From positions 1 to 26,333 of IMG/VR virus record IMGVR_UViG_3300036884_000233: DNA of 26,333 nucleotides, one strand, 5' to 3'. Shown piece after piece: positions 728 to 25,273 of the stretch (positions are counted from its first letter, which is position 1; each line of letters begins with the position of its first letter). The notes under the pieces were generated by a model that was not told where the DNA came from, did no database searches, and was given only the letters and a program-made list of their open reading frames with translations. Source of the DNA: a virus. The position numbers and the translations under genes were made by a program.

Positions 728-752
728 CAAGGATTAAGTTTTCTGATATACT
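724..752 (+). promoter_or_regulatory. Sigma70-type promoter for the HNH gene at 759
   Basis: TTGACA at 724-729, a 17-bp spacer and TATACT at 747-752, with TG at 744-745 forming an extended -10. The ATG at 759 follows after only 6 nt, so the expected transcript starts at or beside the ATG and has no ribosome-binding site. The -35 box covers the stop codon of the preceding gene (725-727). Confidence 0.7.
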
Positions 753-758
753 TTTGGT

Positions 759-1391
759 ATGTCAAAATCAGGAGATACAAGAAAAGGTAAAAAACGAGGC
801 AAATATACTCTTCATAAAGAAAATTCTTCTTTTTTCAAAAAGGGATTTACACCATGGAATAAGGGAAAAGGAAAACCAATAAGAGGGGATTCAATTTGTT
901 CAGTCTGCAATAAAGATTTCCATTGGGAAATTAAGCCTTTTGTACGAAAAGATGGTTACATAACTTATGTAGGTACTTCTCCTAAAACTTGTTCTAAAGA
1001 GTGCCGTTATAAATCAACCGCTATCAATCAAGAAGGTATATTAAGACCTCATATGCAAGGGAAAAATTCTCATCTTTGGCGAGGAGGAACTACTACTTTA
1101 ACGAATCAAATTAGAGGATGTGCAAAATATACTTTATATAGAAAACAATGCTTCGAAAGAGATAATTATACTTGTACTAATTGTCATAAGAAAAAGGGAG
1201 GCAATTTAGAAGCAGATCATATTATTTCTTTTGCACAAATATTAGACTTTTATAAAATAACTACCTTTGAACAAGCTTTGAAATGTCCTTTATTGTGGGA
1301 TTTGCGAAATGCTAGAACTCTTTGTCATAATTGTCATTCAAAAACTCCTACTTATATGACTCCTTTACGCAAACACCCAAAATCCATTTAG
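759..1391 (+). CDS. Free-standing HNH homing endonuclease
   Basis: The 210-residue protein has an HNH nuclease core near its C-terminus: C139-x2-C142, D153-H154, N184 and C189-x2-C192. A second Cys cluster (C47-x2-C50, C78-x3-C82) looks like another zinc site. The N-terminus has a TPWNKGKGKP stretch, and NSHLWRGG at 103-110 is a NUMOD-like DNA-contact motif seen in phage HNH endonucleases. Such enzymes cut DNA lacking the insertion and spread by repair. The gene has its own promoter and sits between adaptor and tail genes; its stop directly abuts the promoter of the tail gene. The assignment is secure, the target site unknown. Confidence 0.9.
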   Translation: MSKSGDTRKGKKRGKYTLHKENSSFFKKGFTPWNKGKGKPIRGDSICSVCNKDFHWEIKPFVRKDGYITYVGTSPKTCSKECRYKSTAINQEGILRPHMQGKNSHLWRGGTTTLTNQIRGCAKYTLYRKQCFERDNYTCTNCHKKKGGNLEADHIISFAQILDFYKITTFEQALKCPLLWDLRNARTLCHNCHSKTPTYMTPLRKHPKSI

Positions 1392-1400
1392 TGCTATAAT
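1392..1400 (+). promoter_or_regulatory. Extended -10 promoter for the large tail gene
   Basis: TGCTATAAT (TGn plus a perfect -10) begins at the base after the HNH stop codon. No good -35 lies 16-18 bp upstream. The transcript should start near 1407 and must pass a terminator-like hairpin before the ATG at 1441. A 15-bp dyad (ATACTC-AAG-GAGTAT, 1401-1415) covers the predicted start point and could be an operator. Confidence 0.6.
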
Positions 1401-1416
1401 ATACTCAAGGAGTATT

Positions 1417-1440
1417 TCCACCTATTATGGTGGATTTTTT
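1417..1440 (+). terminator. Terminator-like leader hairpin abutting the start codon
   Basis: TCCACC (1417-1422), loop TATTAT, GGTGGA (1429-1434), then T6 (1435-1440) and immediately ATG at 1441. This has the form of a rho-independent terminator, but it lies downstream of the extended -10 promoter at 1392-1400, so it may act as an attenuator. It also separates an AAGGAG (1407-1412) from the ATG; when folded, the effective distance is about 10 nt. Confidence 0.55.
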
Positions 1441-4400
1441 ATGGCAAAAGATATCGATGTAAAAAGTCAAAAAAGATTTCAGGGGATTTCGGACTATCCA
1501 AAGGAATCCTCAAACGGTCAAATTCCCGATACTTATTACTTTGGCCGAGCCGTAAATTATAGGGATGATCCACAGTCTTTAACCCTAATGCCAGCATCAT
1601 TAAAAGAGTCAGGATCCGTAGTCACCGACTTTCTAAAATGGGCAGATATTGTACCTGTTACTTTGACCTCATTTCACTATGGGGATGTTGGCAATGTTTA
1701 CTCTAGAACCTCTGCCGGATCGTGGGCCAATTTGTTTACGGTTCCTGCATCCCACGGTAATGGATTAGCTTACTTCTCAGGGGATGATTATATCTATGTT
1801 ACTTCGGATGCTAATATTTCACGCTACGGACCGACACAAAACAGCCCAGCATTCACCGCAAACTTTCTAACAGCGCAGGGTGGTATTCCACAAAATACTG
1901 CTTCTCTTGTTTTGGCTTCCGCTTCGTCTATGTATGCACACGCTGCAGATTCTGCTTCTTTATCGATAACCGGCAACCTAACCCTAGAAACCTATTTTAA
2001 GGCTAACTCATTGCCCGCAGTGGGGTCGTCTATGACTCTATTAGGTAAATGGGATGAATCGGGAGCGCTAAGAAGCTACAAGCTTGATTTATTTGGAGTA
2101 TCCGGCTTTTTTGGAGACGGATCCGATGGAAGCAAAACAATATCGGTTGACACTACAGAGGCTCCTATCGACTCAGCTTGTACGGGAACAGCAGGATTAC
2201 AAAGTTTATCTGCAACTAACGTATCCTTTGCGGTAGGTCAAAAAATATTAATTATTCAAATGCAGGGCACAGGTGCCGGCCAATGGGAAACAAAAACAAT
2301 TCAGGGATATACAGCGGGAACAATAACACTAGATACTCCCCTTACAAATACTTATGTGTCTGGAGCGCAGGTACTTGTAGGAAAAAGATATACAAATGTT
2401 ACCGTAAATAGTGGTAAAACTTGGAAACCTAAAGCTTGGAATGGAACAGTAGGGGGTATTTTATTCTTTTATGCAAACGGGACTGTTACCGTAACAGGAC
2501 ATATAGTTGCAGATAATACAGGGTTTAGGGGAGGACAAGCAGTTAACCAGCAAACAGCGGGATGGTCTGGGGAGGGTACAACAGGCGCTTCCCTACAGCA
2601 AACCGCAGCTAATGGAAATGGAGGAGGTGGAGGCCAAGGACAAGGAGGTGGCCCGGGATCTCCAATTGGCGCCGGTGGTGGAGGAGGTAATGCTACTAGT
2701 GGAGTAACTGGGGGTGCCGGGGGAGGAGGAACAGGGGGAGCGGGTGGTAATAGTTCGGGGGCTACTGATTTAACAACGATGACCTTAGGAGGCGGAGGAG
2801 GTTCGGGTGGAGCAGGAGATAACTCAGGGGCTGATGCAGGAGGCGTAGGGGGAGGAATTATTTTTATCAATGGAGTTACAATAACTGTTACAGGTACAAT
2901 TACCTCTAACGGTATAAATGGAACAGCTACGCAGGCAGGTTCAAATGCAGGATCGGGAGGAGGTGCGGGTGGCTCTATTCTTCTTAAAACACAAACCGCA
3001 ACTTTGGGAAGCGGACTTATAACAGCAAGTGCGGGAACAGGTGGTATTACAGGAGGATGGTCATCTGCAAACGGAGGTAACGGTTCTGTGGGAAGAATAG
3101 ATATTAACTATCTAACATCTTATACAGGCACAACAACACCGACAATTAATGCAATTCAGGATAATACTTTAGTTACTACAACTACAATTCAAGCTAGACT
3201 AGGTATTTCAAATGATGGCACAGCTTTTGAATATCTTACTCAGAACTTAAATACACTGACTACAGGGACTTGGAATAGACTTTCTATTGCATGGACAGCT
3301 TCTACATCTACAGCGCAGTTTTATTTTAACGGACTATATATTGGGCAGAGCATTGGAACTAAGACATCTATTCATGATAATGCTTCACTTCTTTATATAG
3401 GAGCAAATAAAGGGGCATCTACTATCGTAAATTACTTTGATGGTCTTTTAAATGACACAAGAATAATTAATAATGTTCAAACTGCTGGACAAATTTATGC
3501 GAATCTTAATCAACAATTATCCGTAACTTATGCTGGGCTTCAGGCATATTATAAATTTAATTCCGCTTATACTGATGCAACTGGGAATAGCAACACTTTA
3601 ACCCCAGTCAACTCGCCAACATTTTCAGCAGATGTGCCTTTTGCTGCCCCAACAACAAGACTGGATATCGATACTACTCAAAACTTAACAGGTCAAACAT
3701 ACACTTTATTAACTGCTATAAGCGAATCCTCAAATGACCTGCTTCCTTTTACTCCCGTAAACGATCCGCAGGACTCAGTTGGGTTCTACGTGGATACTAA
3801 GGGGACTGGCAATTGGACTTTGACAATTCACGATCAACAGAATAAAGTGGTAGCCAGTCAAACTATCGCCGCTGCCAATATTCCCGCCAGTGGATTTATA
3901 GAGTTTATTTTTGCTACTCCTTGGCGACTAATTACAAATAAAAGCTATCATATGCATTTGACCGTTTCTACAGGAACGTCAAACGTGGTTACAGGAACAA
4001 CGGCCAACTTTTCAACTGCCGAGTACACTTCCTACTTTGGATTTTTGGTTACAGATACGCAGTTTCACCCTGTCCATCAGTTCCAATATCAACCGTTAGG
4101 AGGTAGTTTAACAGGGGCAGAAATTATAGGTAATGAGCGATATTTAGCAGTCTGGGATGGTGCCAATTATCTGCCCAATTTTATTACTTTTCCACCGGGA
4201 TGGCGTGTCCGATGTTTTGCACAGTGGCGACAATACTTAGCTATTGGAGTATGGAGAGGCGGTAATATCTATGACTTCCATCAGGGCCGGATATACTTTT
4301 GGTCAGGTTACCAGCCAGCTTACGATTTCTTTATAGATGTCCCCGAGGGACAGATAAACGCTCTATTTGGAGTTGACTCCGACTTGTATATGTTTGCCGG

Positions 4401-5112
4401 ATTTAGAGGAATCTTGCTTGATTACAAAGGTGGTTATTTCTATAATACAGGAAACTCCTCATCAAATAAATTAAAGAGAATGCCTTTATTATCGGCTGCT
4501 GACTATACCGAGGTTTACCCTGGAGCTTTGAATATGTGGAGAGGACTCTTACACTTTGGACTTTATGCAAACTCTAACTCAACTACAGCGCAAAAGGGTG
4601 TCTACTCATTTGGTACTTTAAACCAGTATTACCCGGACACTCTTTCCTATGATTATGTTATTTCTACAGGAAACAAAGCATCCACTGTATCTATTGGCTT
4701 AGTCTATCCCGTAGGACAGAACTTGATAATCGGCTGGAAAGACGGCTCGGCCTACGGCGCTGATATGGTAAGTTTCTCTAATCCTCCTGCATCAAGTGGA
4801 GAAGTCGATCTTCTAATTATTGACGATAATGCTATCTGGAATCAAAATGCTAACTTCCAAGTTAAGGCCGATTTTGAACCGCTTAAAACAGGAGAAAGTA
4901 TAGACACTAAGGTAAGTCTAGATAGGGGAGCATTCGCTTTTTCAACCCCAGACGGTACCGTAGGCGATATGTTTACTAAAGGGCAGGTAAGTAACGGAAG
5001 AGGTAGAGAAGTGCAGTTCGGAGCAGATCTATATGCTACTGGCTCTACAAGCCCTACATTACTGGCAATATCACTACTTAGAAACGGACTGGCAGAGGAG
5101 GAACAGTTCTAA
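1441..5112 (+). CDS. Large tail protein with LamG fold interrupted by a glycine-rich domain
   Basis: 1223 residues. The N-terminus (to about 140) and the C-terminal 450 residues are beta-rich, with propeller-like repeats of aromatic strands, as in tail nozzle or hub proteins. A LamG/concanavalin-like sandwich starts at about 150 (NLTLETYFKA) and resumes near 580, then GTWNRLSIAW and FYFNGLYIG. Between these lies an inserted domain of about 350 residues that starts GFFGDGSDGSKTIS and includes a Gly-Gly-rich run around 395-475. LamG and Gly-rich modules commonly bind carbohydrate, so receptor or virion-surface contact is inferred. The gene follows the adaptor and overlaps the next start as TAATG. 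A shadow Pro-rich frame runs on the opposite strand. Confidence 0.75.
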   Translation: MAKDIDVKSQKRFQGISDYPKESSNGQIPDTYYFGRAVNYRDDPQSLTLMPASLKESGSVVTDFLKWADIVPVTLTSFHYGDVGNVYSRTSAGSWANLFTVPASHGNGLAYFSGDDYIYVTSDANISRYGPTQNSPAFTANFLTAQGGIPQNTASLVLASASSMYAHAADSASLSITGNLTLETYFKANSLPAVGSSMTLLGKWDESGALRSYKLDLFGVSGFFGDGSDGSKTISVDTTEAPIDSACTGTAGLQSLSATNVSFAVGQKILIIQMQGTGAGQWETKTIQGYTAGTITLDTPLTNTYVSGAQVLVGKRYTNVTVNSGKTWKPKAWNGTVGGILFFYANGTVTVTGHIVADNTGFRGGQAVNQQTAGWSGEGTTGASLQQTAANGNGGGGGQGQGGGPGSPIGAGGGGGNATSGVTGGAGGGGTGGAGGNSSGATDLTTMTLGGGGGSGGAGDNSGADAGGVGGGIIFINGVTITVTGTITSNGINGTATQAGSNAGSGGGAGGSILLKTQTATLGSGLITASAGTGGITGGWSSANGGNGSVGRIDINYLTSYTGTTTPTINAIQDNTLVTTTTIQARLGISNDGTAFEYLTQNLNTLTTGTWNRLSIAWTASTSTAQFYFNGLYIGQSIGTKTSIHDNASLLYIGANKGASTIVNYFDGLLNDTRIINNVQTAGQIYANLNQQLSVTYAGLQAYYKFNSAYTDATGNSNTLTPVNSPTFSADVPFAAPTTRLDIDTTQNLTGQTYTLLTAISESSNDLLPFTPVNDPQDSVGFYVDTKGTGNWTLTIHDQQNKVVASQTIAAANIPASGFIEFIFATPWRLITNKSYHMHLTVSTGTSNVVTGTTANFSTAEYTSYFGFLVTDTQFHPVHQFQYQPLGGSLTGAEIIGNERYLAVWDGANYLPNFITFPPGWRVRCFAQWRQYLAIGVWRGGNIYDFHQGRIYFWSGYQPAYDFFIDVPEGQINALFGVDSDLYMFAGFRGILLDYKGGYFYNTGNSSSNKLKRMPLLSAADYTEVYPGALNMWRGLLHFGLYANSNSTTAQKGVYSFGTLNQYYPDTLSYDYVISTGNKASTVSIGLVYPVGQNLIIGWKDGSAYGADMVSFSNPPASSGEVDLLIIDDNAIWNQNANFQVKADFEPLKTGESIDTKVSLDRGAFAFSTPDGTVGDMFTKGQVSNGRGREVQFGADLYATGSTSPTLLAISLLRNGLAEEEQF

Positions 5113-5534
5113 TGGAAGAGGATTTCAAAAAACAGGGTATAGACAATACTAACAAGACGGATAATGTTTCCAATAATAATCCTAGTATTAATACGGAACC
5201 ACAACAGGCAAGAGCGCCTCAGCCATTTCTATTCCCACAGGACTTGGCGCCGGGGTCAGTAGTTCAACAACATTTAGTTCCTAATCCGTCAAGTAAAGGC
5301 GATATTTATTTCGGGCTAGATGGAGTAAGATTTGCAAGAATAGCTATAGGCAAAATAGGACAGGTATTAACGGTGGCGTCAGGAGTTCCGGCATGGTCTT
5401 ATCTTTTAACAACAGGGATTGCCTCAGCACGGCCCACAACAGGTGCGTTCACGGGCGCACAGTTTTTTGCAACGGATACTAAAGTTTTAAGTATTTGGGA
5501 TGGAGCAACTTGGCGCACTACTACCTTGACATAG
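5112..5534 (+). CDS. Small tail fibre-like virion protein
   Basis: 140 residues. The start overlaps the previous stop (TAATG), and AGGAGG at 5097-5102 gives a good SD. The first 50 residues are Asn/Gln/Pro-rich and probably disordered. The remainder (GDIYFGLDGVRFARIAIG, then LSIWDGATWRTTTLT) has the short beta-strand pattern of the C-terminal end of phage fibre or tail-surface proteins. Its coupling to the large tail gene suggests an accessory part of the same structure. No enzyme motif is visible. The last two codons before the stop form part of the -35 box of the next gene. Confidence 0.5.
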   Translation: MEEDFKKQGIDNTNKTDNVSNNNPSINTEPQQARAPQPFLFPQDLAPGSVVQQHLVPNPSSKGDIYFGLDGVRFARIAIGKIGQVLTVASGVPAWSYLLTTGIASARPTTGAFTGAQFFATDTKVLSIWDGATWRTTTLT

Positions 5535-5554
5535 TGGACAGGAATAGCTATAAT
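5526..5554 (+). promoter_or_regulatory. Perfect-consensus sigma70 promoter for the HNH gene at 5562
   Basis: TTGACA at 5526-5531, a 17-bp spacer and TATAAT at 5549-5554 match both consensus boxes exactly. The ATG at 5562 is 7 nt past the -10, so the message should be leaderless. The -35 overlaps the last codons of the preceding gene. Confidence 0.8.
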
Positions 5555-5561
5555 CGTGGAA

Positions 5562-5987
5562 ATGAAGCTAATACCACTAACTAAGGGTTTATCCGCAAAA
5601 GTAGACGATGAGGATTTTGAATATCTTAATCAGTTTCATTGGCACGTAGACTCCAAAGGATATGCTGTTCGAAATAAACCTCGTCCCCGACAAGGAAATC
5701 ATGCTATTTATATGCATCGTGTTGTCAATAATACACCCGATGGTTTACAAACTGACCACATCGATAGAGACAAGCTCAATAATCAAAAAGGCAATCTTAG
5801 AAATGCAACTCAAAGTCTTAACAATTACAATAATGGTTCAAAAGGATATGGATTCCACAAGGCAAGTGGAAAATGGAGAGCTTATATCGATATAAAAGGA
5901 AAACATATGCATTTAGGATTATTTTTAACAAAAGAAGAAGCAATGAGAGTAAGGGAAACCGCACTTAAATCAGTTACTTTGAGTTAA
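5562..5987 (+). CDS. HNH endonuclease with AP2-like DNA-binding tail
   Basis: 141 residues from the ATG at 5562; a GTG six bases earlier is in frame but would place the start too near the -10. The order is a short N-terminal beta module with VDDEDFEYLNQF (14-25), the HNH core (MHR at 51-53, D65-H66, N78-L79-R80), then a compact AP2-like region (GYGFHKASGKWRAYI, HLGLF, 95-125). The same architecture recurs in the genes at 12330 and 24794, with clear sequence similarity between the three. Homing endonuclease function is inferred from the family. Confidence 0.88.
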   Translation: MKLIPLTKGLSAKVDDEDFEYLNQFHWHVDSKGYAVRNKPRPRQGNHAIYMHRVVNNTPDGLQTDHIDRDKLNNQKGNLRNATQSLNNYNNGSKGYGFHKASGKWRAYIDIKGKHMHLGLFLTKEEAMRVRETALKSVTLS

Positions 5988-6006
5988 TTGTAAGAAGTGC
6001 TATAAT
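5979..6006 (+). promoter_or_regulatory. Extended -10 promoter for the internal-protein operon
   Basis: TTGAGT (5979-5984), a 16-bp spacer and TATAAT (6001-6006), preceded by TGC. The -35 overlaps the end of the HNH gene. The distance from the -10 to the ATG (40 nt) nearly equals that at 1400 and 13239, and again a terminator-like hairpin lies between. Confidence 0.65.
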
Positions 6007-6015
6007 ACTAATAAG

Positions 6016-6045
6016 ACGCATTGTCGAAAGACGGTGTGTTTTTTT
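6016..6045 (+). terminator. Terminator-like leader hairpin abutting the start codon
   Basis: A 10-bp stem (6016-6025 with 6030-6039) closed by a GAAA tetraloop, with three G-T wobble pairs, followed by a run of T to 6045 and ATG at 6046. It lies downstream of the 6001-6006 promoter, so it should act on that transcript. No SD is visible between the hairpin and the start. Confidence 0.6.
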
Positions 6046-6858
6046 ATGTTTAAACGATTACTACCACGATATGATAATGCAGCAGACATGACTACTGCAC
6101 AAAATAGCATCAATAATGCTGCTAATTCGGGAAATGCGGCTATAAATAGTTATGATCCAACAGCTGCCGGAAATAGTTCTACAGGTGCCGTGACAAGTAA
6201 CTTTAATACAAATCAAGCACAAAATGCTAGTGCCGTAGATCCTCTCCAAAAGGTTATAAATAGCAATCCTACGGTAACTTCTCTTTATCAACAAGGCAAC
6301 GCCTTATATAACGTACCACAATTAGCAACACAGGCTACTGACTTAAGCAATAGATTAACCGATGTAACCCCTAACGCTTATCAGGCAGCAAAAGGTTTTG
6401 ATATTGATAGCACTGATATTGGTAACGGTATTGCTAATGCTTCAGCTTACTTAGGACCACAGTCGGGACGTGCCACAGCTAACTACAACACTGCAGCAGG
6501 TTTAGCATCAAATTTCGTAAATGCAGGACAACTACAAAATGCGCAGAACTTAATTCCGGCGCAGGAGAATGCTACACTTATAGCGCAAAATATGGCTGCC
6601 GAGCAAACAGGATGGAATCAGGCGCAGAAATCTATCCTTGATGGATTATTGGCTAAAATGCAGTCGGGAGTACAACTATCGCAAACTGAAATGACAACTG
6701 CACAACAGTTAGCCGCAACGGAGGAGGCCTACAATGCCCAAGTTTCAGTAAATCAGACTGCGGTACAAACTGCTCAAATTGGGCAGCAATACAAAATACT
6801 TAACCCCGCACAGACTCTTGCCAACACTTTTACAGGTAAGAGTGTAAAAGCAGCATAA
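6046..6858 (+). CDS. Q/N/A-rich internal virion (ejection-like) protein
   Basis: 270 residues from ATG 6046. A GTG at 6034 is in frame but inside the hairpin stem. The sequence is very rich in Ala, Gln and Asn, with few charged residues and no Cys after the start. It appears alpha-helical with Gln-heptad-like stretches (QNLIPAQENATLIAQNMAAE). It heads a run of three virion genes and is joined to the hydrolase gene by TAA-T-ATG. Composition and position match small internal core or DNA-ejection proteins of short-tailed phages. No conserved motif was recognised, so the role is inferred from context. Confidence 0.5.
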   Translation: MFKRLLPRYDNAADMTTAQNSINNAANSGNAAINSYDPTAAGNSSTGAVTSNFNTNQAQNASAVDPLQKVINSNPTVTSLYQQGNALYNVPQLATQATDLSNRLTDVTPNAYQAAKGFDIDSTDIGNGIANASAYLGPQSGRATANYNTAAGLASNFVNAGQLQNAQNLIPAQENATLIAQNMAAEQTGWNQAQKSILDGLLAKMQSGVQLSQTEMTTAQQLAATEEAYNAQVSVNQTAVQTAQIGQQYKILNPAQTLANTFTGKSVKAA

Positions 6859-6859
6859 T

Positions 6860-7321
6860 ATGGATAACCCAATTCTAAAAATAATGCAAAGCGGTGATAC
6901 TGCTTCTGTTCCCGCAGATGTTACTAAGGCTGTAAATGATACAGGCGATCAAAGCTATAATGGGTGGTGTCAAGCTTTCGTAGAACAAGTTACTGGTGTT
7001 AAACCGCAGGGAGATAGTAGTTCTGCGGTTAATGCATGGAATAGCTTTGCAAAGAACGGACAGGCAGTACCTAGTACGCAAGGTATGAAAGCGGGGGATT
7101 TAGTTTATTTTAGTCCTAATGCTTCAAATAACAATGACGGTCATGTCGGTATTTATCAAGGGAATGGAAAATTTGTATCTGCTACAGACAATGGCGTTAA
7201 TGTGCAAGATATGACAGACTGGCAAAAGAAAACGGGACAGCAAGTCTTAGGTTATATACCTCAAAATACAATAAGCGATAATCCCATTTTATCTATCATG
7301 AAAGGAGGGACTATACAATGA
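6860..7321 (+). CDS. CHAP/NlpC-type virion peptidoglycan hydrolase
   Basis: 153 residues with a Cys-His hydrolase pattern: NGWCQAFV puts the catalytic Cys at C37, GMKAGDLVYF follows at 75-84, and GHVGIY places the His at H95. These motifs fit CHAP or NlpC/P60 amidase/endopeptidases, which cut peptide cross-links in cell wall. Its place among virion genes rather than beside the GH25 lysin suggests it opens the wall during DNA entry. Both ends carry a near-copy of one motif (DNPILKIMQSG at 2-12 and DNPILSIMKGG near the end). The start follows the previous stop by 1 nt with no SD; the stop overlaps the next ATG. Confidence 0.7.
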   Translation: MDNPILKIMQSGDTASVPADVTKAVNDTGDQSYNGWCQAFVEQVTGVKPQGDSSSAVNAWNSFAKNGQAVPSTQGMKAGDLVYFSPNASNNNDGHVGIYQGNGKFVSATDNGVNVQDMTDWQKKTGQQVLGYIPQNTISDNPILSIMKGGTIQ

Positions 7322-9549
7322 GTTTACCCACAACACCACCAGCATTCCCATCACTAGGAGGATTCTTAGGAAACGCCGCTAATGACGTGGGAAATATAAT
7401 AAATGGAGTAGTATCATTGCCAGGACAAATTAATGAAGCAATTAAAAGTCCTGCAAATGCTATTAAAGCTGGTAAAAACTTCTTGGGTGGAATTGCTACC
7501 GAAGCAAATCAATTTCTTGGAGATCCTATTCATAATGCACAATTAGTAGGTATTCAAACTCCAGAACAACTTATGAATCAAACTAAAGCACAAGCTTCTC
7601 ATGCATATGAGCATCCAGTAAACACTGCTCTTGATTTAGGAGCAGCGGTTGGTTTGCCCGGAGGAGCACCCGCAAAAGTGGCAGAGGAACCAGCCGTTAC
7701 AGATGTACTAAGAACTCCACCGCCTGTTTCGAAAGTGGCATCTGATGTATATATGAAGGCTTACACAGTACCAACAGGTTTAGATGTAAATCCAGAAGCA
7801 ACAGGTAAATGGATGATAAACGATAATCCTAACTTAGCTAAAATACAGGATTTTCATAATCAAGTTAACGGACTCAAAGAACAAGTAACTAATGATGCAA
7901 CTTTACAAGGAAAACAAGTTAACACTGATACTGCTACTGCGATTGCAAGTAAAGGGATTAAGGATATCCCACAATTGAAAGATAATCCTAGACAAGTTAA
8001 GGGATATAACTCAGAATTAAGTGCTATGATGCCCGCCGTGCAAACTGCTCCTCCAACTTATGCCGGGGATTTAAGAATAGGGGGCGCAACTCCTCTTGAT
8101 ACAGTTAAGTCTATTAAAAATATTGAAAGTCAAGGATATGCTTATAGGGATGCTGCAAGAGATGCGTACGGAAACGTGACAAATGTAGCTTTAGATAAAG
8201 TGGCAAAAGTTTATCTGGACACTGCAACTGAATTACAAACTCAACTGGATACAGTGATCGGAAGAGATAATGTACAAAAATTTACACAAGATCCATTAAC
8301 TCTTTCTCAGATGTCAGAGTTTAGTCCAGCAGCAGCAGCACGATTAAAAGATAATGTAGAAACATACAGTGATTTGAGATCCTTTCAGAAGCCATATGTA
8401 GATATGAGTAAAATACTTAACTGGACTCAAAAAGCTGGGCATAGTGCGTTTGCTAACTTAAGTGGTGGCGCTACAAGGGCTGGGGCAACCGGAATAGGAA
8501 CTGCGATTGGGGCTTTAGCAGGAGGACCTATAGGAGCAGCAGCAGGAGGTATGGCAGGATTTTTAGGAGAACCTTTTATAGGAGCTGCGTTGAATAAAGT
8601 TTTGCCTCCTCTTACGGGTACTGTAGCTAGAAATTTAGAAAGAGTAGGAACTACTGCAAATATAGCTAAAAACGTAGGTAAATATGGAGGGGCCGCAATG
8701 GGCGCACAATCACCCGTGCTTAATCCCGTACCCGAAGGCGTAAACAATAATCCCAACAATCAACAAAATCCACATAGCAACAGTATAACACAGGGAGTCA
8801 ACCCTGATGGCTATTTTTCTGTAACAAATATTCCCGCTAGTTCGGGAGAGATTAAATTAGATGCTCAAGGAAAACTTACTCTTCCTTCCCCATCTCAAAT
8901 AAAAGATGCCAGTGGAAAGGTTATCGGGATGGATACTAATTCATATAATCAACAGGTAGATAAAATTCAAAAAGATATCTCCGCTAACGAATCAAATGCC
9001 TATTCTTTAGATCCTACAATTGCTAATCCGGCGCAAGCATCCATAGCCTCAGATAAGGCACAGCTTGAGAGTTTAAAAACATTGCATGATTCATCAGCTC
9101 CTCTTAACACAGGATACACTTTTGCTAATACGGTAAGTGGAAAAGTATCAACAGCCTTGGATATGCTAAACACAACCGCTCCTAATGTAGTCAACTTAAA
9201 CGCAAATATTAATGACTTAAGAAAAGCTCTAGATCCAGCCTATGCGGGACTTTCTCAACAACTTGCTATCATACAAAAAGAGGTCGGCAATAACTTAAAT
9301 GCTGCTACAAAGCAGGTATTGCAAAACGAGCTAATGACTATTAATCAACAAATAGGCTATGACTATTTAACAGCGGTTAAGACATATGTTGGAGGAAATA
9401 CTACACCTGTCAATCCGATGGCCCCAGGTCCGAATGGTGTCCCGGCATTTCCAACAGCAGGTGTACAACCAGCAGGATCAACTGGCTCACAAGACTTTAG
9501 CGCAATAACAGGTGGTACTCCACCAGTTATGCAATTTCCGAGTCAATAA
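7318..9549 (+). CDS. Large internal virion/ejection protein
   Basis: 743 residues, coupled by ATGA to the hydrolase gene and preceded by a strong AAAGGAGGG SD. The N-terminal 100 residues are Gly/Pro/Ala-rich. The middle is helical. Around 380-425 a long Gly-Ala hydrophobic stretch (GTAIGALAGGPIGAAAGG) could insert in a membrane. After it come an Asn/Pro linker and a helical C-terminal domain with QQLAIIQKEVGN. Size, position and the membrane-active segment suggest an internal core protein ejected with DNA, analogous to T7 gp16. No transglycosylase motif is seen; that activity seems to sit in the preceding gene. Confidence 0.5.
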   Translation: MSLPTTPPAFPSLGGFLGNAANDVGNIINGVVSLPGQINEAIKSPANAIKAGKNFLGGIATEANQFLGDPIHNAQLVGIQTPEQLMNQTKAQASHAYEHPVNTALDLGAAVGLPGGAPAKVAEEPAVTDVLRTPPPVSKVASDVYMKAYTVPTGLDVNPEATGKWMINDNPNLAKIQDFHNQVNGLKEQVTNDATLQGKQVNTDTATAIASKGIKDIPQLKDNPRQVKGYNSELSAMMPAVQTAPPTYAGDLRIGGATPLDTVKSIKNIESQGYAYRDAARDAYGNVTNVALDKVAKVYLDTATELQTQLDTVIGRDNVQKFTQDPLTLSQMSEFSPAAAARLKDNVETYSDLRSFQKPYVDMSKILNWTQKAGHSAFANLSGGATRAGATGIGTAIGALAGGPIGAAAGGMAGFLGEPFIGAALNKVLPPLTGTVARNLERVGTTANIAKNVGKYGGAAMGAQSPVLNPVPEGVNNNPNNQQNPHSNSITQGVNPDGYFSVTNIPASSGEIKLDAQGKLTLPSPSQIKDASGKVIGMDTNSYNQQVDKIQKDISANESNAYSLDPTIANPAQASIASDKAQLESLKTLHDSSAPLNTGYTFANTVSGKVSTALDMLNTTAPNVVNLNANINDLRKALDPAYAGLSQQLAIIQKEVGNNLNAATKQVLQNELMTINQQIGYDYLTAVKTYVGGNTTPVNPMAPGPNGVPAFPTAGVQPAGSTGSQDFSAITGGTPPVMQFPSQ

Positions 9550-9550
9550 A

Positions 9551-9559
9551 TGATATAAT
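9551..9559 (+). promoter_or_regulatory. Extended -10 promoter for the HNH gene at 9567
   Basis: TGATATAAT begins 1 nt after the previous stop codon. ATG 9567 follows after 7 nt, predicting a leaderless message. No convincing -35 lies at 9531-9536. Confidence 0.6.
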
Positions 9560-9566
9560 ATAACAT

Positions 9567-10121
9567 ATGATTATAAATTGTTTAATTTGCAAAAAAGAGA
9601 AAGTTACTTATCCCTCACGACTTAAAGTTGGTAAAGGTAAATTTTGTTCAAAAAAATGTATGTACATTTTTATAAAAGGGCGCATTTCCAATAGAAAGGG
9701 CGTCTCTCTTTCTTCAGAAACTAAAAGAAAAATTAGTTTAGCTAATATAGGTAAAAAAGTCTCATTAGAAACAAGATTAAAATTAAGTAATAGTCGGAAA
9801 GGGGAAAATAATCCAGCTTGGAAGGGTGGTATGACAAGATTACATTATGGTTCAAATAAAGTAGAAAGAATTAGATTTAGAAAAGAAATGCAAAAATTAG
9901 TCTTTAAAAGAGATAATTATACTTGCCAAATGTGTGGTTCAAATGGAGACTTACAGGTAGATCACATTCAGTCTTGGGCAGATTATGTAGAACTTAGATT
10001 TGAAATGAGTAATCTTAGAACTCTTTGTATGGATTGTCACTATTTAATAACTTACGGAAAGCCTAAACCAAAAGACATAGTTTGGGGACATAATTTATCG
10101 AAAGCGAGGGTACAACTATAA
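9567..10121 (+). CDS. Free-standing HNH endonuclease with NUMOD3-like repeats
   Basis: 184 residues. The HNH core is C120-x2-C123, D132-H133, N149 and C154-x2-C157. The N-terminus has a small Cys cluster (C5, C8, C27, C31), followed by NUMOD3-like segments (SSETKRKISLANIGKKVS, KLSNSRKGENNPAWKGG) that bind DNA in homing endonucleases. It is related to the genes at 759 and 16804 through the N-x-x-x-W-(K/R)-G-G motif. It separates the large internal protein from a small virion gene. The next gene starts 14 nt after its stop with only a weak SD, so insertion may have changed how that gene is started. Confidence 0.9.
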   Translation: MIINCLICKKEKVTYPSRLKVGKGKFCSKKCMYIFIKGRISNRKGVSLSSETKRKISLANIGKKVSLETRLKLSNSRKGENNPAWKGGMTRLHYGSNKVERIRFRKEMQKLVFKRDNYTCQMCGSNGDLQVDHIQSWADYVELRFEMSNLRTLCMDCHYLITYGKPKPKDIVWGHNLSKARVQL

Positions 10122-10135
10122 ATCCACCACAGGGA

Positions 10136-10540
10136 ATGCTAGGACAACTTAATCAGAGTATGCAGGCAGGAACACCAGCTATTGATCAGGTTAGTGGAAG
10201 TTCTCCTAATTTCGATCCAAATCTTCAGCCAATGGGTCCATCTCCTATGCCTGAAAAAAGTGTTGGGACTATGATGCACTTACACGGTGCATTAAAGCGA
10301 AGAGGTATAGATCCTGCTTCTCTTCCGCAACTATCACAAAATGCGTCAGGTATGGTTACTATGCCTAACGCTGCCGAGGGAGATCATAATCCTGCACAAC
10401 CCGGCGTTCAAGTTCCCGTTACAGAGGCCGAGTTAATAATTAAAGCTTTAACTACACGCTTAGGCCACCATTCAAAGTTAGAGGCTTCAATAGCTGATGC
10501 GTTACTTCCTCAACCTCAACAGGAGGTGGCAAATGCCTAA
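10136..10540 (+). CDS. Pro/Gln-rich protein of the virion module, unknown role
   Basis: 134 residues of unrecognised family. The N-terminal half is low in charge and rich in Pro, Met, Gln and Ser (NLQPMGPSPMPEKSVG), likely extended. The C-terminal half contains a predicted helix (VTEAELIIKALTTRLGHH). It lies between internal virion genes and the lysis module and overlaps the following start. The frame stays open for five codons upstream of the ATG (to the HNH stop region), so an earlier non-ATG start cannot be excluded. A minor virion component is inferred from position only. Confidence 0.45.
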   Translation: MLGQLNQSMQAGTPAIDQVSGSSPNFDPNLQPMGPSPMPEKSVGTMMHLHGALKRRGIDPASLPQLSQNASGMVTMPNAAEGDHNPAQPGVQVPVTEAELIIKALTTRLGHHSKLEASIADALLPQPQQEVANA

Positions 10541-10802
10541 ATCTGAAGAAGTATCCAGAGCCGCTCAATTAATTAAGCAAACAGCCCAAGAGACTGCTAC
10601 AGCTTTAAATATTCAGTATATTCAACGGGATATATCAGATCTGAAGAGTGCATACACCAAACTAGCTGAAAGTCAGGATGGTAAAGCAGGTAGATTAGAA
10701 ACTCAAATACAAGGACAGGCGAAAATAATTTATATGGGAATAGGAGCTTCAATGGCGTTTTCTATTTTTGTCCCCTTACTCGTTCACTTTTTTGTTAAAT
10801 AA
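10533..10802 (+). CDS. XhlA-like coiled-coil protein with C-terminal membrane anchor
   Basis: 89 residues from ATG 10533, chosen because AGGAGGTGG lies just upstream; a longer in-frame start at 10497 has no SD. The first 60 residues are helical and polar (SDLKSAYTKLAESQDGKAG). The last 25 form one membrane segment (IYMGIGASMAFSIFVPLLV) ending in HFFVK. This arrangement matches XhlA/hemolysin-type lysis accessory proteins, which sit beside holin and endolysin genes. The GH25 endolysin follows after 23 nt. Assignment to the lysis module is likely; the exact function is inferred. Confidence 0.55.
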   Translation: MPKSEEVSRAAQLIKQTAQETATALNIQYIQRDISDLKSAYTKLAESQDGKAGRLETQIQGQAKIIYMGIGASMAFSIFVPLLVHFFVK

Positions 10803-10810
10803 CTACAAAA

Positions 10811-10819
10811 TGTTATAAT
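10811..10819 (+). promoter_or_regulatory. Extended -10 promoter for the endolysin
   Basis: TGTTATAAT with a TTGTTA (10792-10797) 16 bp upstream as a possible -35. The endolysin ATG (10826) is 6 nt past the -10, so its message is expected to be leaderless. Confidence 0.65.
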
Positions 10820-10825
10820 ATACTA

Positions 10826-11692
10826 ATGATAGTCGGTAACGATATATCCTCATACCAAGGCCAGATAGATTGGCCTACTTTTAAGAATAATATTAACTTT
10901 ATTATTGCTAAGGCTACGGAGGGAGTAGGTATTATAGACGCATGGTATGGCAACAACAGACAGCAAGCTAGAGATTTCAATATTCCTAGAGGTTGGTACC
11001 ACTTCGCACATCCCGAGTTAAACTCCCCGGAGGACGAGGCTAACTGGTTTCTAAAAGTATGCTACGATATTCAGCCAGGAGAGATTCTATTTCTAGACTA
11101 CGAACCACTTGCCGGAGCATTTACGGGTAATGATGTTGATTGGGTTACGAGATTCTTTAAAGTAATATCAGATAGACTAAGCGGATATAAGGCTGTTTTT
11201 TACTCTTTTCAAAATATGCTTACAAGACAGGACTGGTCATCGGTAGTAAAAGAGGGACATGGTCTTTGGGTAGCGGCTCCAACTAATGATCCAAACAATA
11301 ATAACTTTGATACCGGCGCATGGCCTTTTGCTATGATGCAACAATGGGGAAACGAGACTGTCCCCGGCGTTAAGGGTATAGTCGATGCCGATGTATTTTT
11401 TGGTACACCGACTCTTTTTACTGCCTATGGTTATCACTTGCCAAATCCAGCACCTATGCCTTCAACTAATCCAGATCCTATTCCCAATCCTGTAACGCCT
11501 ACGGAACCTGCACCTATACCAACTGTACCAACAACCCCGACAGTGCCGCCAGTTACGCCACCTCCTACTATCCCGCCAGTCGTAGTGCCACCTGTTGAGC
11601 CAAGTACCCCTCCTACAGGTACAGTGGCCGTTCCACGTAATTTTTTAGTAATGCTTTTCAACTTATTAAAAAAATGGCTAAATCTCAAATAG
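10826..11692 (+). CDS. GH25 lysozyme endolysin
   Basis: 288 residues. The glycoside hydrolase 25 fold spans about 1-200: DISSYQG (D6), FIIAKATEG, FLDYEP (D91 and the presumed catalytic E93), MMQQWGNE and VDADVF (D187/D189). GH25 muramidases cleave the MurNAc-GlcNAc beta-1,4 bond in peptidoglycan. A Pro/Thr/Val-rich linker (208-270) follows, then a short hydrophobic-basic tail (NFLVMLFNLLKKWLNLK), which may be a wall or membrane contact rather than a classical wall-binding domain. No signal peptide is seen, consistent with holin-dependent release. The next gene overlaps its 3' end by 19 nt. Confidence 0.92.
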   Translation: MIVGNDISSYQGQIDWPTFKNNINFIIAKATEGVGIIDAWYGNNRQQARDFNIPRGWYHFAHPELNSPEDEANWFLKVCYDIQPGEILFLDYEPLAGAFTGNDVDWVTRFFKVISDRLSGYKAVFYSFQNMLTRQDWSSVVKEGHGLWVAAPTNDPNNNNFDTGAWPFAMMQQWGNETVPGVKGIVDADVFFGTPTLFTAYGYHLPNPAPMPSTNPDPIPNPVTPTEPAPIPTVPTTPTVPPVTPPPTIPPVVVPPVEPSTPPTGTVAVPRNFLVMLFNLLKKWLNLK

Positions 11693-12329: not shown

Positions 12330-12779
12330 ATGAAGTATATTAAATTAACTCAAGGAAAACTCGCATTGGTAGACGATGAGGATTTTGAATATCTAAATCA
12401 ATGGAGGTGGAGATATTTAAAAATTGGCTATACCAATGCTAGGATAAATGGTAAATATGTTTATATGCACCGACTCTTAATGAAAACTCCTAAAGGTTTA
12501 TACACAGACCATATAAACATGAATAAACTTGATAATAGAAAATCCAATCTTAGGAACGTTACTAACTCTTTAAATAATTTTCACAAACCCCTGAGAAAAA
12601 CTAATGCCTCGGGTTATACTGGTGTTGTTTTAGATAAACGAAGAAATAAATGGATTGCTCAGATAATATTTCATAGAAAATTAAAGTTTTTAGGATATTT
12701 TAATAATATAACTGATGCAATTTATAAAAGAAAAGAAGCAGAATTATTTTATTTTAGAGAAAATTTAATAAACTTGTAA
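12330..12779 (+). CDS. HNH endonuclease with AP2-like domain
   Basis: 149 residues. The VDDEDFEYLNQW motif (14-25) and the HNH core (MHR 46-48, D60-H61, N73-L74-R75) precede an AP2-like DNA-binding region (ASGYTGVVLDKRRNKWIAQI, then KFLGYF, 93-125). It is a clear paralogue of the genes at 5562 and 24794. Unlike the 5562 copy it has an SD (AAGGA) rather than a leaderless promoter. It separates the Pro/Val/Glu gene from the small holin-like gene, whose SD follows at once after the HNH stop. Confidence 0.88.
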   Translation: MKYIKLTQGKLALVDDEDFEYLNQWRWRYLKIGYTNARINGKYVYMHRLLMKTPKGLYTDHINMNKLDNRKSNLRNVTNSLNNFHKPLRKTNASGYTGVVLDKRRNKWIAQIIFHRKLKFLGYFNNITDAIYKRKEAELFYFRENLINL

Positions 12780-13282: not shown

Positions 13283-13513
13283 ATGAAAGAGAGTGATTTG
13301 GATTACAGTTTTGAGGCATTTATAATAAATCACGTGCCTAGTTGGGGAATTAGATTTAAATTTCCAGATGAAGAGATTGTTTTCCCTATTGGATTAGAAC
13401 TTGACACTGATATTGCGATTATACATGGAGTAAATCCTGATCCTCCTAGAAATAAAAAGGGCGAACACGCTGTAAGCGCAAAGAAGGTGAGAATTAATGA
13501 AGGAGAATATTAG
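13283..13513 (+). CDS. Small protein of unknown function, start of early region
   Basis: 76 residues: an N-terminal acidic stretch, a beta-rich centre (WGIRFKFPDEEIVFPIGLEL) and a basic tail. No family recognised. Its ATG lies 5 nt after the leader hairpin's T-run and has no SD. It overlaps the next gene by 17 nt, and that gene's SD (GGTGA) lies within its last codons, so the two are co-translated. Confidence 0.5.
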   Translation: MKESDLDYSFEAFIINHVPSWGIRFKFPDEEIVFPIGLELDTDIAIIHGVNPDPPRNKKGEHAVSAKKVRINEGEY

Positions 13514-15232: not shown

Positions 15233-15664
15233 ATGAATAAACAACTTTTAACAATGACACCTAAAAGCCCAATGATGAAAGCGGCAAAGCTAGTCGAGTT
15301 AGGAGTAATAGCTAAAGAACTCCGGGAAAAACTATCGCTAGTAACCGATGAAATGCAGGTCTATAAAGACGATCTCCTAAAAATAACCCAAGACCTAGAT
15401 GTATTATCTCTTAAAACAGGGTCCTATACAATCTCCCGGGCCATAAGAATAACTCCCCAAGTTGAGGATTTTGTCAAACTAAAAGTATCTCTAGAAAAAG
15501 CCGGAGTCCCGGTAATGACAGTTGAGGCCTTCGCACCGCAAATGGATGAGGTATTTAAAGAAGCGCTAAAAGAGGGGAAAGAGTTTGACGGCCTAGGCAA
15601 AAGAGAAACTCAGTATATAGCGGTCCGCATAAGCGATAAAAAGGAGGCAGAAAGTGGAAAATAA
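15233..15664 (+). CDS. Recombination-associated coiled-coil protein
   Basis: 143 residues. The first 55 are helical (ELREKLSLVTDEMQVYKDDL), followed by a compact domain (LKTGSYTISRAIRITPQVED, then KRETQYIAVRIS). It overlaps the next gene by 11 nt and carries that gene's SD, so the two are made together. Small helical proteins next to annealing proteins in phages often modify host nucleases or bind DNA, but no specific family was recognised. The role is inferred from the neighbour. Confidence 0.45.
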   Translation: MNKQLLTMTPKSPMMKAAKLVELGVIAKELREKLSLVTDEMQVYKDDLLKITQDLDVLSLKTGSYTISRAIRITPQVEDFVKLKVSLEKAGVPVMTVEAFAPQMDEVFKEALKEGKEFDGLGKRETQYIAVRISDKKEAESGK

Positions 15665-16442
15665 TAAATTACAGGTATTACCTTCTATAAGAAAACCACA
15701 AAGGGATACAAAGTTTGCTAAAAGGGCAGCGGATATCCTAGTAGACATAGTCAAACAAAACAAATGGGCGATAAAGTTGGGTGGCGACAAAGAGCACTTA
15801 GTTTATGAAGCTTGGCAGACTTTGGGTAAATACTACGGATATACAGTTGAAACCTACGAAGCAGAAGAGGTAGAAATAGCCGGAATCGCTGGATTTAAAG
15901 CCAAGGCTAGAGTGGTAAACGAAAACACAGGAGTTGAGGTAGGAGGCGCTGAGGCATATTGTATGCGAGACGAGGGAAATTGGACTAAAAAACCTACATT
16001 TCAACTAGCAAGTATGGCACAAACCCGAGCCGGAGCTAAAGCTTTACGACAGATATTAAGTTTTGTAGTAGCGCTAGCGGGTTACAATCCAACCCCGGCA
16101 GAGGAAATGACAGGGGACGAGCATATAAACGGCGCAGAAACTTCCAGGACAGAAACAGGTAAACTTGCCAGCGCAAAACAAACAGCATTTATATTTAGGC
16201 TCTTAAAAGAAAAAGGGCATACGGAAAAAGAGTTGACTATAAAATATGGAGTATCAATAGCTGGGTTAAGTAGTCAACAGGCCAGTACGATAATTGAAAA
16301 CTTAATGCAACTTCCGGGGAAAACAAAAGAAAGCCCTGAAGAAGATGGCACGGAAACTACGGACCCGGAGATAAATATAGATGAGGTAGCGGAGGCAATA
16401 GATCAAAACGATAAATCAATGGCAGAGCAAACACCTTACTAA
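15654..16442 (+). CDS. Rad52/ERF-like single-strand annealing protein (putative)
   Basis: 262 residues, GTG start with AAAGGAGG (15640-15647) 6 nt upstream. The N-terminal domain contains a segment typical of phage annealing-type proteins (LASMAQTRAGAKALRQILSF, then VALAGYNPTPAEEM, about 120-155). The second part (ASAKQTAFIFRLLKEKG, about 172-220) is a helical module found at the end of several phage recombination proteins. The C-terminus is acidic, as is common for ssDNA-associated proteins. Such proteins pair complementary strands during phage recombination and replication. Subfamily assignment needs profile comparison. Confidence 0.55.
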   Translation: MENNKLQVLPSIRKPQRDTKFAKRAADILVDIVKQNKWAIKLGGDKEHLVYEAWQTLGKYYGYTVETYEAEEVEIAGIAGFKAKARVVNENTGVEVGGAEAYCMRDEGNWTKKPTFQLASMAQTRAGAKALRQILSFVVALAGYNPTPAEEMTGDEHINGAETSRTETGKLASAKQTAFIFRLLKEKGHTEKELTIKYGVSIAGLSSQQASTIIENLMQLPGKTKESPEEDGTETTDPEINIDEVAEAIDQNDKSMAEQTPY

Positions 16443-16803: not shown

Positions 16804-17307
16804 ATGTTTACAAAAGGACACACAATAAATTTAGGGAGAAAACATTCATTAGAAGCTAAAAATAAAATGAGTAAAATTAGATTATCAAATCCAACTAGAT
16901 ATTGGAAAGGGAAAGAATTTTCTAAAAAGCATAGAGAAAGATTAAGCATTATGAACAGTAGGCCAAGATTAAATACTCGTGGAATAAATAATCCTTTATG
17001 GAAAGGTGGAATTAGTAAAGATAAAAAACATGTAAATGAACAAAAGAAAATGTCTGATTTAAAAAGAAGAATTATTAAAATGAATTTAATAAGTTCTTTT
17101 ACATTAGGAGAATGGGAATTACTTAAAAAACAATATGGTTATATTTGTCCATCATGTTATATAAAAGAACCAGAAATTAAATTAACTATTGATCACATAA
17201 TACCTTTATCAAAAGGTGGTTCAAATATTATTGAAAATATACAACCATTATGTAGAAGTTGTAATAGTCGCAAGCATACAAAAATAATTAAATATGAAAT
17301 GGTTTAA
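16804..17307 (+). CDS. HNH endonuclease with NUMOD3-like repeats
   Basis: 167 residues. The N-terminal half has NUMOD3-like DNA-contact repeats (GRKHSLEAKNKMSKIR, GKEFSKKHRERLSIM) and NNPLWKGG. The HNH core is C115-x2-C118, D130-H131, N145 and C150-x2-C153. It belongs with the genes at 759 and 9567. The composition is more AT-rich and Lys-rich than its neighbours, which fits recent acquisition. It overlaps the next gene by 14 nt, so it has become part of the cluster's translation order. Confidence 0.9.
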   Translation: MFTKGHTINLGRKHSLEAKNKMSKIRLSNPTRYWKGKEFSKKHRERLSIMNSRPRLNTRGINNPLWKGGISKDKKHVNEQKKMSDLKRRIIKMNLISSFTLGEWELLKKQYGYICPSCYIKEPEIKLTIDHIIPLSKGGSNIIENIQPLCRSCNSRKHTKIIKYEMV

Positions 17308-21440: not shown

Positions 21441-21743
21441 ATGCATTATCATTTTACACCATCACCTGGAATTGTAATCATATCCCCACTTAAAAAAGAA
21501 GAAGCTTCAATTATAGGATCAGATAAATCTCAAGGAAGAATAATTAAAGGCAAGATTATTGCTATAGGTGGAGATGATACAACTACAATGGGAGAGATTA
21601 TTAAAGCAAGTAAATATGGTAAGACGGGAGATATAGTTTGGTTTTTAAGTTATTACACAGAGGGTGGTTATGACAGAATGGAAGTAAATGGAGAATTATT
21701 ATATTGTGTTAAATTTGCAGATATAAGAGCTGTAGAAAAATAA
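21441..21743 (+). CDS. groES: GroES-like co-chaperonin
   Basis: 100 residues from ATG 21441; an in-frame ORF extends to 21414 but would include the promoter. The Cpn10 pattern is clear: FTPSPGIVIISPLKKEEAS at the start, a mobile-loop region (IIGSDKSQGRI), KGKIIAIGG, KTGDIVWF, NGELLYCVKFADIRAV at the end. GroES caps the GroEL ring to close the folding chamber. It is followed after 1 nt by groEL, the normal gene order. Phage versions are known to help fold capsid or other phage proteins. Confidence 0.85.
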   Translation: MHYHFTPSPGIVIISPLKKEEASIIGSDKSQGRIIKGKIIAIGGDDTTTMGEIIKASKYGKTGDIVWFLSYYTEGGYDRMEVNGELLYCVKFADIRAVEK

Positions 21744-21744
21744 T

Positions 21745-23331
21745 ATGTTACCAACAGATATTTTATTTGATAAACAAGCACGTGAGAAACTCCTAGAGGG
21801 TATAAGGATAATGTAGCGGGCTGTTGCCTCAACTTTAGGTCCCCGGGGCAGAAACGTTGCTATTGCCCGGGCCACTCCAAAGGGAGAGATTTATGATAGA
21901 ACTACACTTCATGACGGCGTTTCAGTTGCCCGGTCTATAGAGTTAGCCGATGAGTTTGAAAATATGGGCGCTAAACTACTTTTAGAGGCTTCACAGCGCC
22001 AAGTAGATTTAGTAGGAGACGGCACCACAGTCGTTATGATACTAGCCCGAGCTATAATCGAGGAGTGTATGACCTTAATCGCTGCAGGAGTTAATCCAAT
22101 GGCACTCCGAAAAGGTTTAGAAGAGGGATTAGATAGACTGATCAAACAGTTGGAGCCGATGGCAATTCCTGTTAAGGATAAAAAAGAGTTAAACTTTGTA
22201 GCTTCTATTTCAGCCGGAAATGAAGAGCTAGGCCAAATGATTTCAGAGGCTTTCACGATAGTTGGTAAAGACGGAGTGGTTACAGCTGAAAACTCAAAGA
22301 GTCCGAATACTACGTTAGAGCATCAAAAGGGGATGCAATTAGATAAAGGAATGCTCCACGCTTGGCTTATTACCAATCCACAGCGAATGGAGGCTGTTCT
22401 AGAGAATGCTTATTTCTTAATTACCGATAAGCCTATTGCCTCGTTTGCCGATATTCAAAAATTCTTAACAGAGTTTGTAAAAGTTTCACGCCAACTAGTT
22501 ATTATCTCCCCGGATATTTCCGGTGATGCTTTGCCGCTTCTAATTCAAAATAAACTAGAGGGAAAGTTTGGTGTTATTCTTATCCAAGCGCCAAGTTTTG
22601 GGGAGGATCAAAAAGCTATCTTGCAGGATATTGCTACATTAACTGATGGTAAGTTCCTGTCTCAAGATGCGGGATATAAGTTTGATGACTTAACTATTGA
22701 GGATTTAGGTTTTGCAGAGAGTATTACCTCAACTAAAGACGAAACAATTATTGTTAAGGGCCGGGGAACTAAAAAGGCGCTAGATACTAGAATAGCCTCG
22801 ATTAAAAAACAGTTAGAGGATGAAGATTCGGACTTTAATATAGAAAAACTAAAATCAAGACTAGGTAAACTGACAAACGGAGTGGTAATAATTAGAGTAG
22901 GCGGCCAAACAGAAATAGAAATGAAAGAAAGACGTGAAAGAGTACTTGACTCAATAGCCGCCACACGAGCCGCTATGGAGAAAGGAATCGTCCCAGGAGG
23001 CGAGGTTGCATTCTTACATATAAGAAAAATACTTAAAGGTGTAGATACTCTTGCAGATAAGATTTTATACAACGCCTTATATAAACCGTTTCAAAAGATA
23101 CTGGAAAATGGTGGTCTTTCCGAAGTTGAGGTTGCGCTTGCGATGCAGGGTAAAAGTAAAAACTTCGGAGTAGATCAGACAAACGGTGAGGTTAAGGATA
23201 TGATTGAGGCTGGAATAGTAGATCCAGTTCTAGTGCCTATTAACGCTTTGAAAAATGCTGTGTCCGTAGCTTTGCAAATTATAATGAGTGGCACTATAAT
23301 AGTTCCACACAAAGAGGAGGTGGACAAATAA
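21745..23331 (+). CDS. groEL: GroEL-like chaperonin with in-frame TAG at codon 24
   Basis: 528 codons in GroEL register. Before the stop the frame reads FDKQAREKLLEGIRIM; after the TAG (21814-21816) it continues RAVASTLGPRGRNVAIA, both standard GroEL N-terminal sequence. The ATP site is kept: STLGPRG (29-35), HDGVSVA (D57), GDGTT (91-95). Later motifs (KAILQDIATLTDG, ERRERVLDSIAATRAAMEKG) also fit. The Gly-Gly-Met tail of bacterial GroEL is absent. The first ATG after the stop is 21964, which would remove 73 residues including the first ATP-site motifs. So the gene is either read through, mutated, or mis-sequenced at one base. Confidence 0.8.
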
Positions 23332-23332
23332 C

Positions 23333-23389
23333 ATGGCAAAAAAATGCAAAAAACACGGTAAAACAGATTGCAGGAAATGCAGCAAATAA
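23333..23389 (+). CDS. 18-residue Cys/His micro-ORF
   Basis: MAKKCKKHGKTDCRKCSK: a very basic peptide with C-x2-H, then C-x2-C, compatible with one zinc site. AGGAGGTG lies 12 nt before its ATG, inside the end of groEL. It overlaps the next gene's start. Translation is plausible but not certain at this length. Confidence 0.35.
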   Translation: MAKKCKKHGKTDCRKCSK

Positions 23390-23706
23390 TTTGTCCAGTT
23401 TGTCAAAAGAACCCGGCGCAGTGGGATGAATATTATGGATGGTTACCGTGTAGGCCATGCCAAGATAGACAGTCTAAGTTAGAAAAGCCAAGGGCTCAAA
23501 TAGAGTTTACAAGTGATAGTATTAAAGAAAGTAGAAAGGCAAATGCTGATGATATAGAGCCTCAGCATATCAAAGGAAATCTAAATAAAAAATGGGTAGA
23601 TATTTACGGCAAGAAAAGAGCAAAGGAATTAGGATATACAGACAAGGAAATTAAAAATGCAAAGTATGTCGCAAATGAAATAAGATATTATAAAGAAGGT
23701 AATTAG
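23377..23706 (+). CDS. Zinc-ribbon-type small protein
   Basis: 109 residues from ATG 23377; an upstream TTG is in frame but unlikely. The N-terminus has two CxxC pairs (ICPVCQKNPA and LPCRPCQD), a zinc-ribbon layout. The rest is charged and helical (KRAKELGYTDKEIKNAKYV). Similar short phage proteins are common and uncharacterised. It follows groEL closely and may share its message. Confidence 0.55.
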   Translation: MQQIICPVCQKNPAQWDEYYGWLPCRPCQDRQSKLEKPRAQIEFTSDSIKESRKANADDIEPQHIKGNLNKKWVDIYGKKRAKELGYTDKEIKNAKYVANEIRYYKEGN

Positions 23707-24454: not shown

Positions 24455-24807
24455 CAGACTTTGAATTAAGAGTACAACATTTTCAGGAGTTATTCGGTTT
24501 AGAAAACTGGAAGATTATAGTGGTTGAGTCGCCAAGTCCAGTGGAAAATAGAACCGCTATGACTTTAGCTAATCCGCAGTATTATACCGCAACAATGACA
24601 GTCTATCCTAGACTATTAACCGACTTTGCTCTTTGGGATGAGACAATAGTGCATGAAATGATACATATTGTTTATGCTTTATATGATTTTTATTGTGATA
24701 ATTTAGGTAAGGAAGGTAGCGATGACTTATTTTTTACAGCACGAGAAGGCGGAACATCTCAAATGACGGCAGTTATTATGAGATTATTAAAAAATGAAAA
24801 AACTTAA
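24451..24807 (+). CDS. Zincin-like metalloprotease domain protein
   Basis: 118 residues. HEMIH at 68-72 is a zinc-binding and catalytic HExxH motif, preceded by the helix start WDETIVHE and the strand TATMTVYPRLL, as in SprT-like and similar phage zincin proteins. A third ligand could lie in the following helix (Tyr/Glu-rich, FTAREGG). It could cut a host or phage protein; the target is unknown. The 3' end holds the start of the HNH gene (14-nt overlap). Confidence 0.65.
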   Translation: MTDFELRVQHFQELFGLENWKIIVVESPSPVENRTAMTLANPQYYTATMTVYPRLLTDFALWDETIVHEMIHIVYALYDFYCDNLGKEGSDDLFFTAREGGTSQMTAVIMRLLKNEKT

Positions 24808-25273
24808 GCTTACTAAAGGAAAATTTGCTTTAATTGATGACGAAGATTTTGATTATTATAATCAATTCAAATGGTATTTTAGTGGAAACGGATATGCAGC
24901 ACGAAGAGTATTTCCTGAAAATAAAGTATTCTATCTACATCAATTTATATCAAATACCCCAAAGGGAATGGATACAGACCACATAAACGGAGATACATTG
25001 GATAATCGCAGAAGTAATTTAAGAATAGTAACGCATCGACAGAATATGCTTAATAGTAAAATACCTAAAAATAATACAAGTGGATACAAAGGAGTAACTT
25101 TTAAGAAAAGTAATAAGAAATGGCAAGCACAAACTGAGGTAAAATTTGGAAAAACAAGGATACATATTTTTATTGGATACTTTGATTCTAAAGAAAAAGC
25201 TAATGAAGCGTACAAAAAGAAAGTATTAGACCTTTATAATTCTAAGCAAATTTATAATAGTTTATATCCATAA
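24794..25273 (+). CDS. HNH endonuclease with AP2-like domain
   Basis: 159 residues: the IDDEDFDYYNQFKW motif (14-27), an HNH core with LHQ in place of MHR (49-51), D62-H63 and N75-L76-R77, then an AP2-like region (TSGYKGVTFKKSNKKWQAQ, FIGYF, 95-130). It is a paralogue of the genes at 5562 and 12330. The reading starts inside the zincin gene and stops inside the next start (TAATG), so it is fully embedded in the translation chain. The LHQ change leaves the first His in place. Confidence 0.88.
   Translation: MKKLKLTKGKFALIDDEDFDYYNQFKWYFSGNGYAARRVFPENKVFYLHQFISNTPKGMDTDHINGDTLDNRRSNLRIVTHRQNMLNSKIPKNNTSGYKGVTFKKSNKKWQAQTEVKFGKTRIHIFIGYFDSKEKANEAYKKKVLDLYNSKQIYNSLYP

Follow-up and report, generated by a model that had tools for sequence, protein, structure and literature searches.

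GroEL homologues are known in phage genomes, among them the chaperonins of phages EL and OBP (PMC5934643), and 251 records of the phage collection searched here gave a chaperonin match. Phages in which TAG has been recoded (genetic code 15) are also known, among crAss-like phages and others (PMC9523058, PMC10607447), and in these phages many genes contain TAG and a suppressor tRNA is often present. An altered code is also known from Patescibacteria phages, where a suppressor tRNA accompanies the reading of UGA as glycine (PMC13059738). The window analyzed here, a virus record of 26,333 bases, shares features with the first two of these systems. Like EL and OBP it encodes a GroEL/Cpn60 homologue, although in this case the gene has a groES-like partner, lies in a probable Patescibacteria phage and contains a nonsense codon. 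An in-frame TAG in a conserved gene is what it has in common with the TAG-recoding phages, but here one gene is affected and TAG otherwise serves as a normal stop. In contrast to the UGA-recoding Patescibacteria phages, TGA ends seven genes of the window. We conclude, with a probability of about 0.88, that the locus is a phage groES-groEL pair in which groEL, as assembled, carries one isolated, unprogrammed nonsense codon, being either a wrong base or a very recent null allele. The features on which the analysis is based are as follows.

21441..21743, + strand: groES-like co-chaperonin gene, 100 aa, directly upstream of groEL.
21745..23331, + strand: groEL (Cpn60) frame of 528 codons with one interruption; matches PF00118 and PDB GroEL chains, 51-52% identity to contigs L002 and L003.
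21814..21816, + strand: in-frame TAG, groEL codon 24; a sense residue in 106 of 106 aligned relatives.
21964..23331, + strand: longest uninterrupted ORF from a standard start within groEL, 455 aa, without the first ATP-site motifs.
23368..23706, + strand: small cysteine-rich (zinc-ribbon-like) gene downstream of groEL, terminated by a genuine TAG; syntenic in relatives.

The part of the groEL frame that follows the TAG matched the Pfam Cpn60_TCP1 model (PF00118) with an E value of 2.4e-62, the match covering positions 3-487 of the 490 in the profile, and PDB GroEL chains matched query residues 3-522. The Cpn60_TCP1 domain covers the full length of the GroEL frame, as is expected of a group I chaperonin, and alignment located the ATP-site motifs TLGPRGRNV, HDG, GDGTT and PGGE within it. 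The window protein is a group I chaperonin of the kind already known from phages. Its relatives include the viral IMG/VR contigs L002 and L003 (51-52% identity) and L036, on a 39.8-kb contig of the Patescibacteria MAG REEB91 (46%). The REEB91 contig is syntenic with the window through the groES-like gene, groEL, the small cysteine-rich gene and the small gene that follows it; the L002 and L003 loci show the same gene order, with further small genes after groEL. Unlike the window, all three of these loci (GroEL identity ~46-52%) have a sense codon at the TAG column and an intact frame. While the groES-like gene on its own gave no Pfam match, it shares 35% identity across 110 residues with the ORF that precedes groEL on the REEB91 contig, and L002 and L003 have a groES-like gene in the corresponding place. 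Homologues of the gene at 23368..23706 were found in L002, L003, G005 and L036.

Two further observations concern these genes. In the apical domain of the window GroEL, at ~22345-22375 (around codons 202-210), the motif GMLHAWL is found where most relatives have GYxSPYF or similar; the equivalent positions are known to bind substrate in E. coli GroEL, and substrate choice may be altered. By eye, an AT-rich, -10-like sequence (TATAATAT...ATG) lies a few bases before several starts, including 9567, 10826, 21441 and 21745, with no clear ribosome-binding site at these starts, an arrangement that would fit leaderless transcripts.

The groEL frame begins with ATG at 21745 and ends at 23331. The sequence-only reading had described the TAG at codon 24 as the sole break in this frame, with strong conservation on either side and no standard start before 21964, so that a restart would cost the first ATP-site motifs. 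Each of these points was borne out, by translation, by homology to the GroEL of relatives across both flanks, and by a start scan combined with the alignment. The frame contains neither a second stop nor a frameshift and is otherwise a complete GroEL, and the 23 codons before the TAG align with GroEL N-termini (ILFDKQAREKLLEGI versus IIFDDEAREKIYRGV in L002). The uninterrupted frame that a functional GroEL product needs is nevertheless lacking, owing to the TAG at 21814-21816. Translation could in principle restart at the ATG at 21964, the earliest in-frame ATG, GTG or TTG after the TAG, and the 455-aa open frame from there would then encode a truncated GroEL-like protein that has taken on a new role. 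Such a product would be without TLGPRGRNV and HDG, both of which sit after the TAG yet before 21964, although the stretch between these two points is still conserved as protein, and no clear ribosome-binding site was seen by eye before 21964. A restart with a new role is thus most improbable. Restart from a non-standard codon within the same interval is likewise unlikely, the only in-frame candidates being ATT (21862, 21889) and ATA (21937). Scans for promoters and terminators near the TAG produced none beyond chance.

The column occupied by the TAG was compared among 106 aligned GroEL relatives, mostly cellular with ~26 from viral contigs. Alanine was found in 86, serine, threonine and valine in five each, cysteine in two, and aspartate, glycine and tyrosine in one each; an additional phage (G001) has tyrosine. 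The column is moderately variable, with well conserved flanks (nearby Gly 100%, Val 99%, Thr 99% and Gly 99%). None of the 106 relatives has a stop at this column, and the TAG is therefore not a conserved signal. A comparison of relatives for a sense codon in an intact frame had been proposed in the sequence-only reading, and its outcome, sense in 106 of 106, argues against a conserved programmed event. Programmed readthrough, by which the stop would set the amount of GroEL made, would be in keeping with the intact and constrained frame after the TAG; not only is the stop absent from all aligned relatives, however, but RNA folding near the TAG was also no stronger than that of shuffled sequences (z -0.10, 0.62, 0.87), which does not indicate a stimulatory structure. 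We consider this explanation very unlikely.

The frame has also been kept in good order. At columns that are near-invariant, with conservation of 95% or more, the GroEL of the window deviates at 4 of 67, while its five closest relatives (L002, L003, L007, L036 and L009) deviate at 5 to 9 of the same columns, and two of the four deviations, A427G and G473E, also occur in close relatives. Gradual pseudogene decay was ruled out, as near-invariant residues are kept. Since groEL is undecayed and has no second stop or frameshift, a nonsense change, if real, must be recent. No alanine codon lies one base change from TAG, so a single-base origin from the prevalent residue is not available and a different predecessor is needed; serine and tyrosine, which both occur among the relatives, have one-step codons. 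No relative above ~52% GroEL identity was found by which the TAG change could be dated, and a DNA pattern search for a nearly identical version of this region gave no match in viral contigs.

Whether TAG is read as sense more generally was addressed through gene ends. Among the 37 genes listed for the window, 23 end in TAA, seven in TGA and six in TAG, and one runs off the window. Eight gene ends had been put forward from the sequence as true TAG stops; all eight are TAG, but the open frames that end at 13513 and 19519 are short, with 77 and 56 codons. The protein closed by the TAG at 23706 terminates at about the same point in L002, L003 and L036, and reading this codon as sense would fuse it with the next gene, which is separate in these relatives. 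Of the window genes that could be compared with relatives, groEL alone carries an internal TAG and the others are unbroken in their own frames; the remaining stop-containing matches in that comparison came from antisense frames, from the stops that close genes or from alignments running beyond the end of a gene. The genome of the window uses TAG as an ordinary stop, in agreement with the earlier view that the code is unlikely to have changed genome-wide.

These data also bear on suppression, in which an amber-reading tRNA supplied by the host, or by a part of the phage outside the record, would allow full-length GroEL to be made. The window is probably a fragment and related phages carry tRNA genes, so a tRNA gene could sit elsewhere; the TAG column tolerates varied residues, tyrosine included; and the TAG is followed by C, a stop context that generally gives weak termination, the effect of C at +4 being documented especially for UGA (PMC5289835). 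Against this, no tRNA gene was found in the 26,333-base window, itself probably a fragment, and no tRNA with a CUA anticodon was found in the related phage records fetched, in which the tRNAs are Asn, Gln and Trp, or among the tRNAs found in the REEB91 MAG, where one ambiguous tRNA (anticodon printed 'gc') was judged by eye to be of GCA type and not CTA. Rfam identified no RNA family in the window. In addition to the six window genes that end in TAG, with the overrun past 23706 that suppression would bring, a single gene is affected here, as opposed to TAG in 41 ORFs of a known TAG-recoding phage (PMC10607447). An undetected CUA tRNA of host or phage, with GroEL made only in those hosts or at those times where the suppressor is present, is accordingly quite unlikely. 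With no CUA tRNA where one was sought, no unusual RNA structure and a stop that is not conserved, neither of the options of readthrough and host suppression raised in the sequence-only reading has positive support.

As to the source of the DNA, both ends of the window lie inside open frames, from which the record is probably a phage fragment. Among its gene products are a terminase fragment and a DnaD-like helicase loader, together with a lysin of glycosyl hydrolase family 25 and tail-fibre-like matches. The large structural genes at 2-11692 show ~57-59% identity to the REEB91 contig (G007:C1; L125, L126). Because structural genes are common to both, the 39.8-kb REEB91 contig is probably a phage relative that was binned together with its host, and on the strength of this binning Patescibacteria are the likeliest host of the window phage. 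Queries with the terminase fragment and with the gene at 15654-16442 found no relatives, the 1223-aa structural gene found one (43%), and the segment 16500-26333, compared with the phage collection as nucleotides, gave no match. Six HNH-type genes (759-1391, 5556-5987, 9567-10121, 12330-12779, 16804-17307 and 24794-25273) are scattered among the phage genes, a high number for a 26-kb stretch; they are probable homing endonucleases, and for two of the six the score against their Pfam model reaches the cut-off at best or falls just short of it.

In view of the sense residue in all 106 relatives, the best explanation is still a nonsense codon in groEL that is isolated and unprogrammed, and both of its possible origins, wrong base and null mutation, were among the options first listed. 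The two predict an identical sequence. We assign about half the probability to a single wrong base in the metagenome consensus, and a somewhat smaller share to a null allele that arose very recently in the phage population. Of the single-base changes possible in the window genes, about 5.3% create a stop, and assumed per-base error rates of 1e-4 to 1e-5 would give 0.12 to 0.012 expected nonsense codons in the window, a figure that is unremarkable across many scanned windows. If the TAG allele is real, translation would end after 23 residues and no functional chaperonin would be made. Host GroEL could cover the loss (the one Patescibacteria MAG examined, REEB91, encodes a further GroEL on a different contig, C9), and a null allele of the phage gene could survive if host GroEL suffices.

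The case is a reminder that a lone stop in a metagenome contig should be backed by reads before a change of code is put forward. Recoding would be of importance if true, but the results speak against it. The locus then stands as the chaperonin operon of a probable Patescibacteria phage, by which the list of known phage chaperonins is modestly extended.
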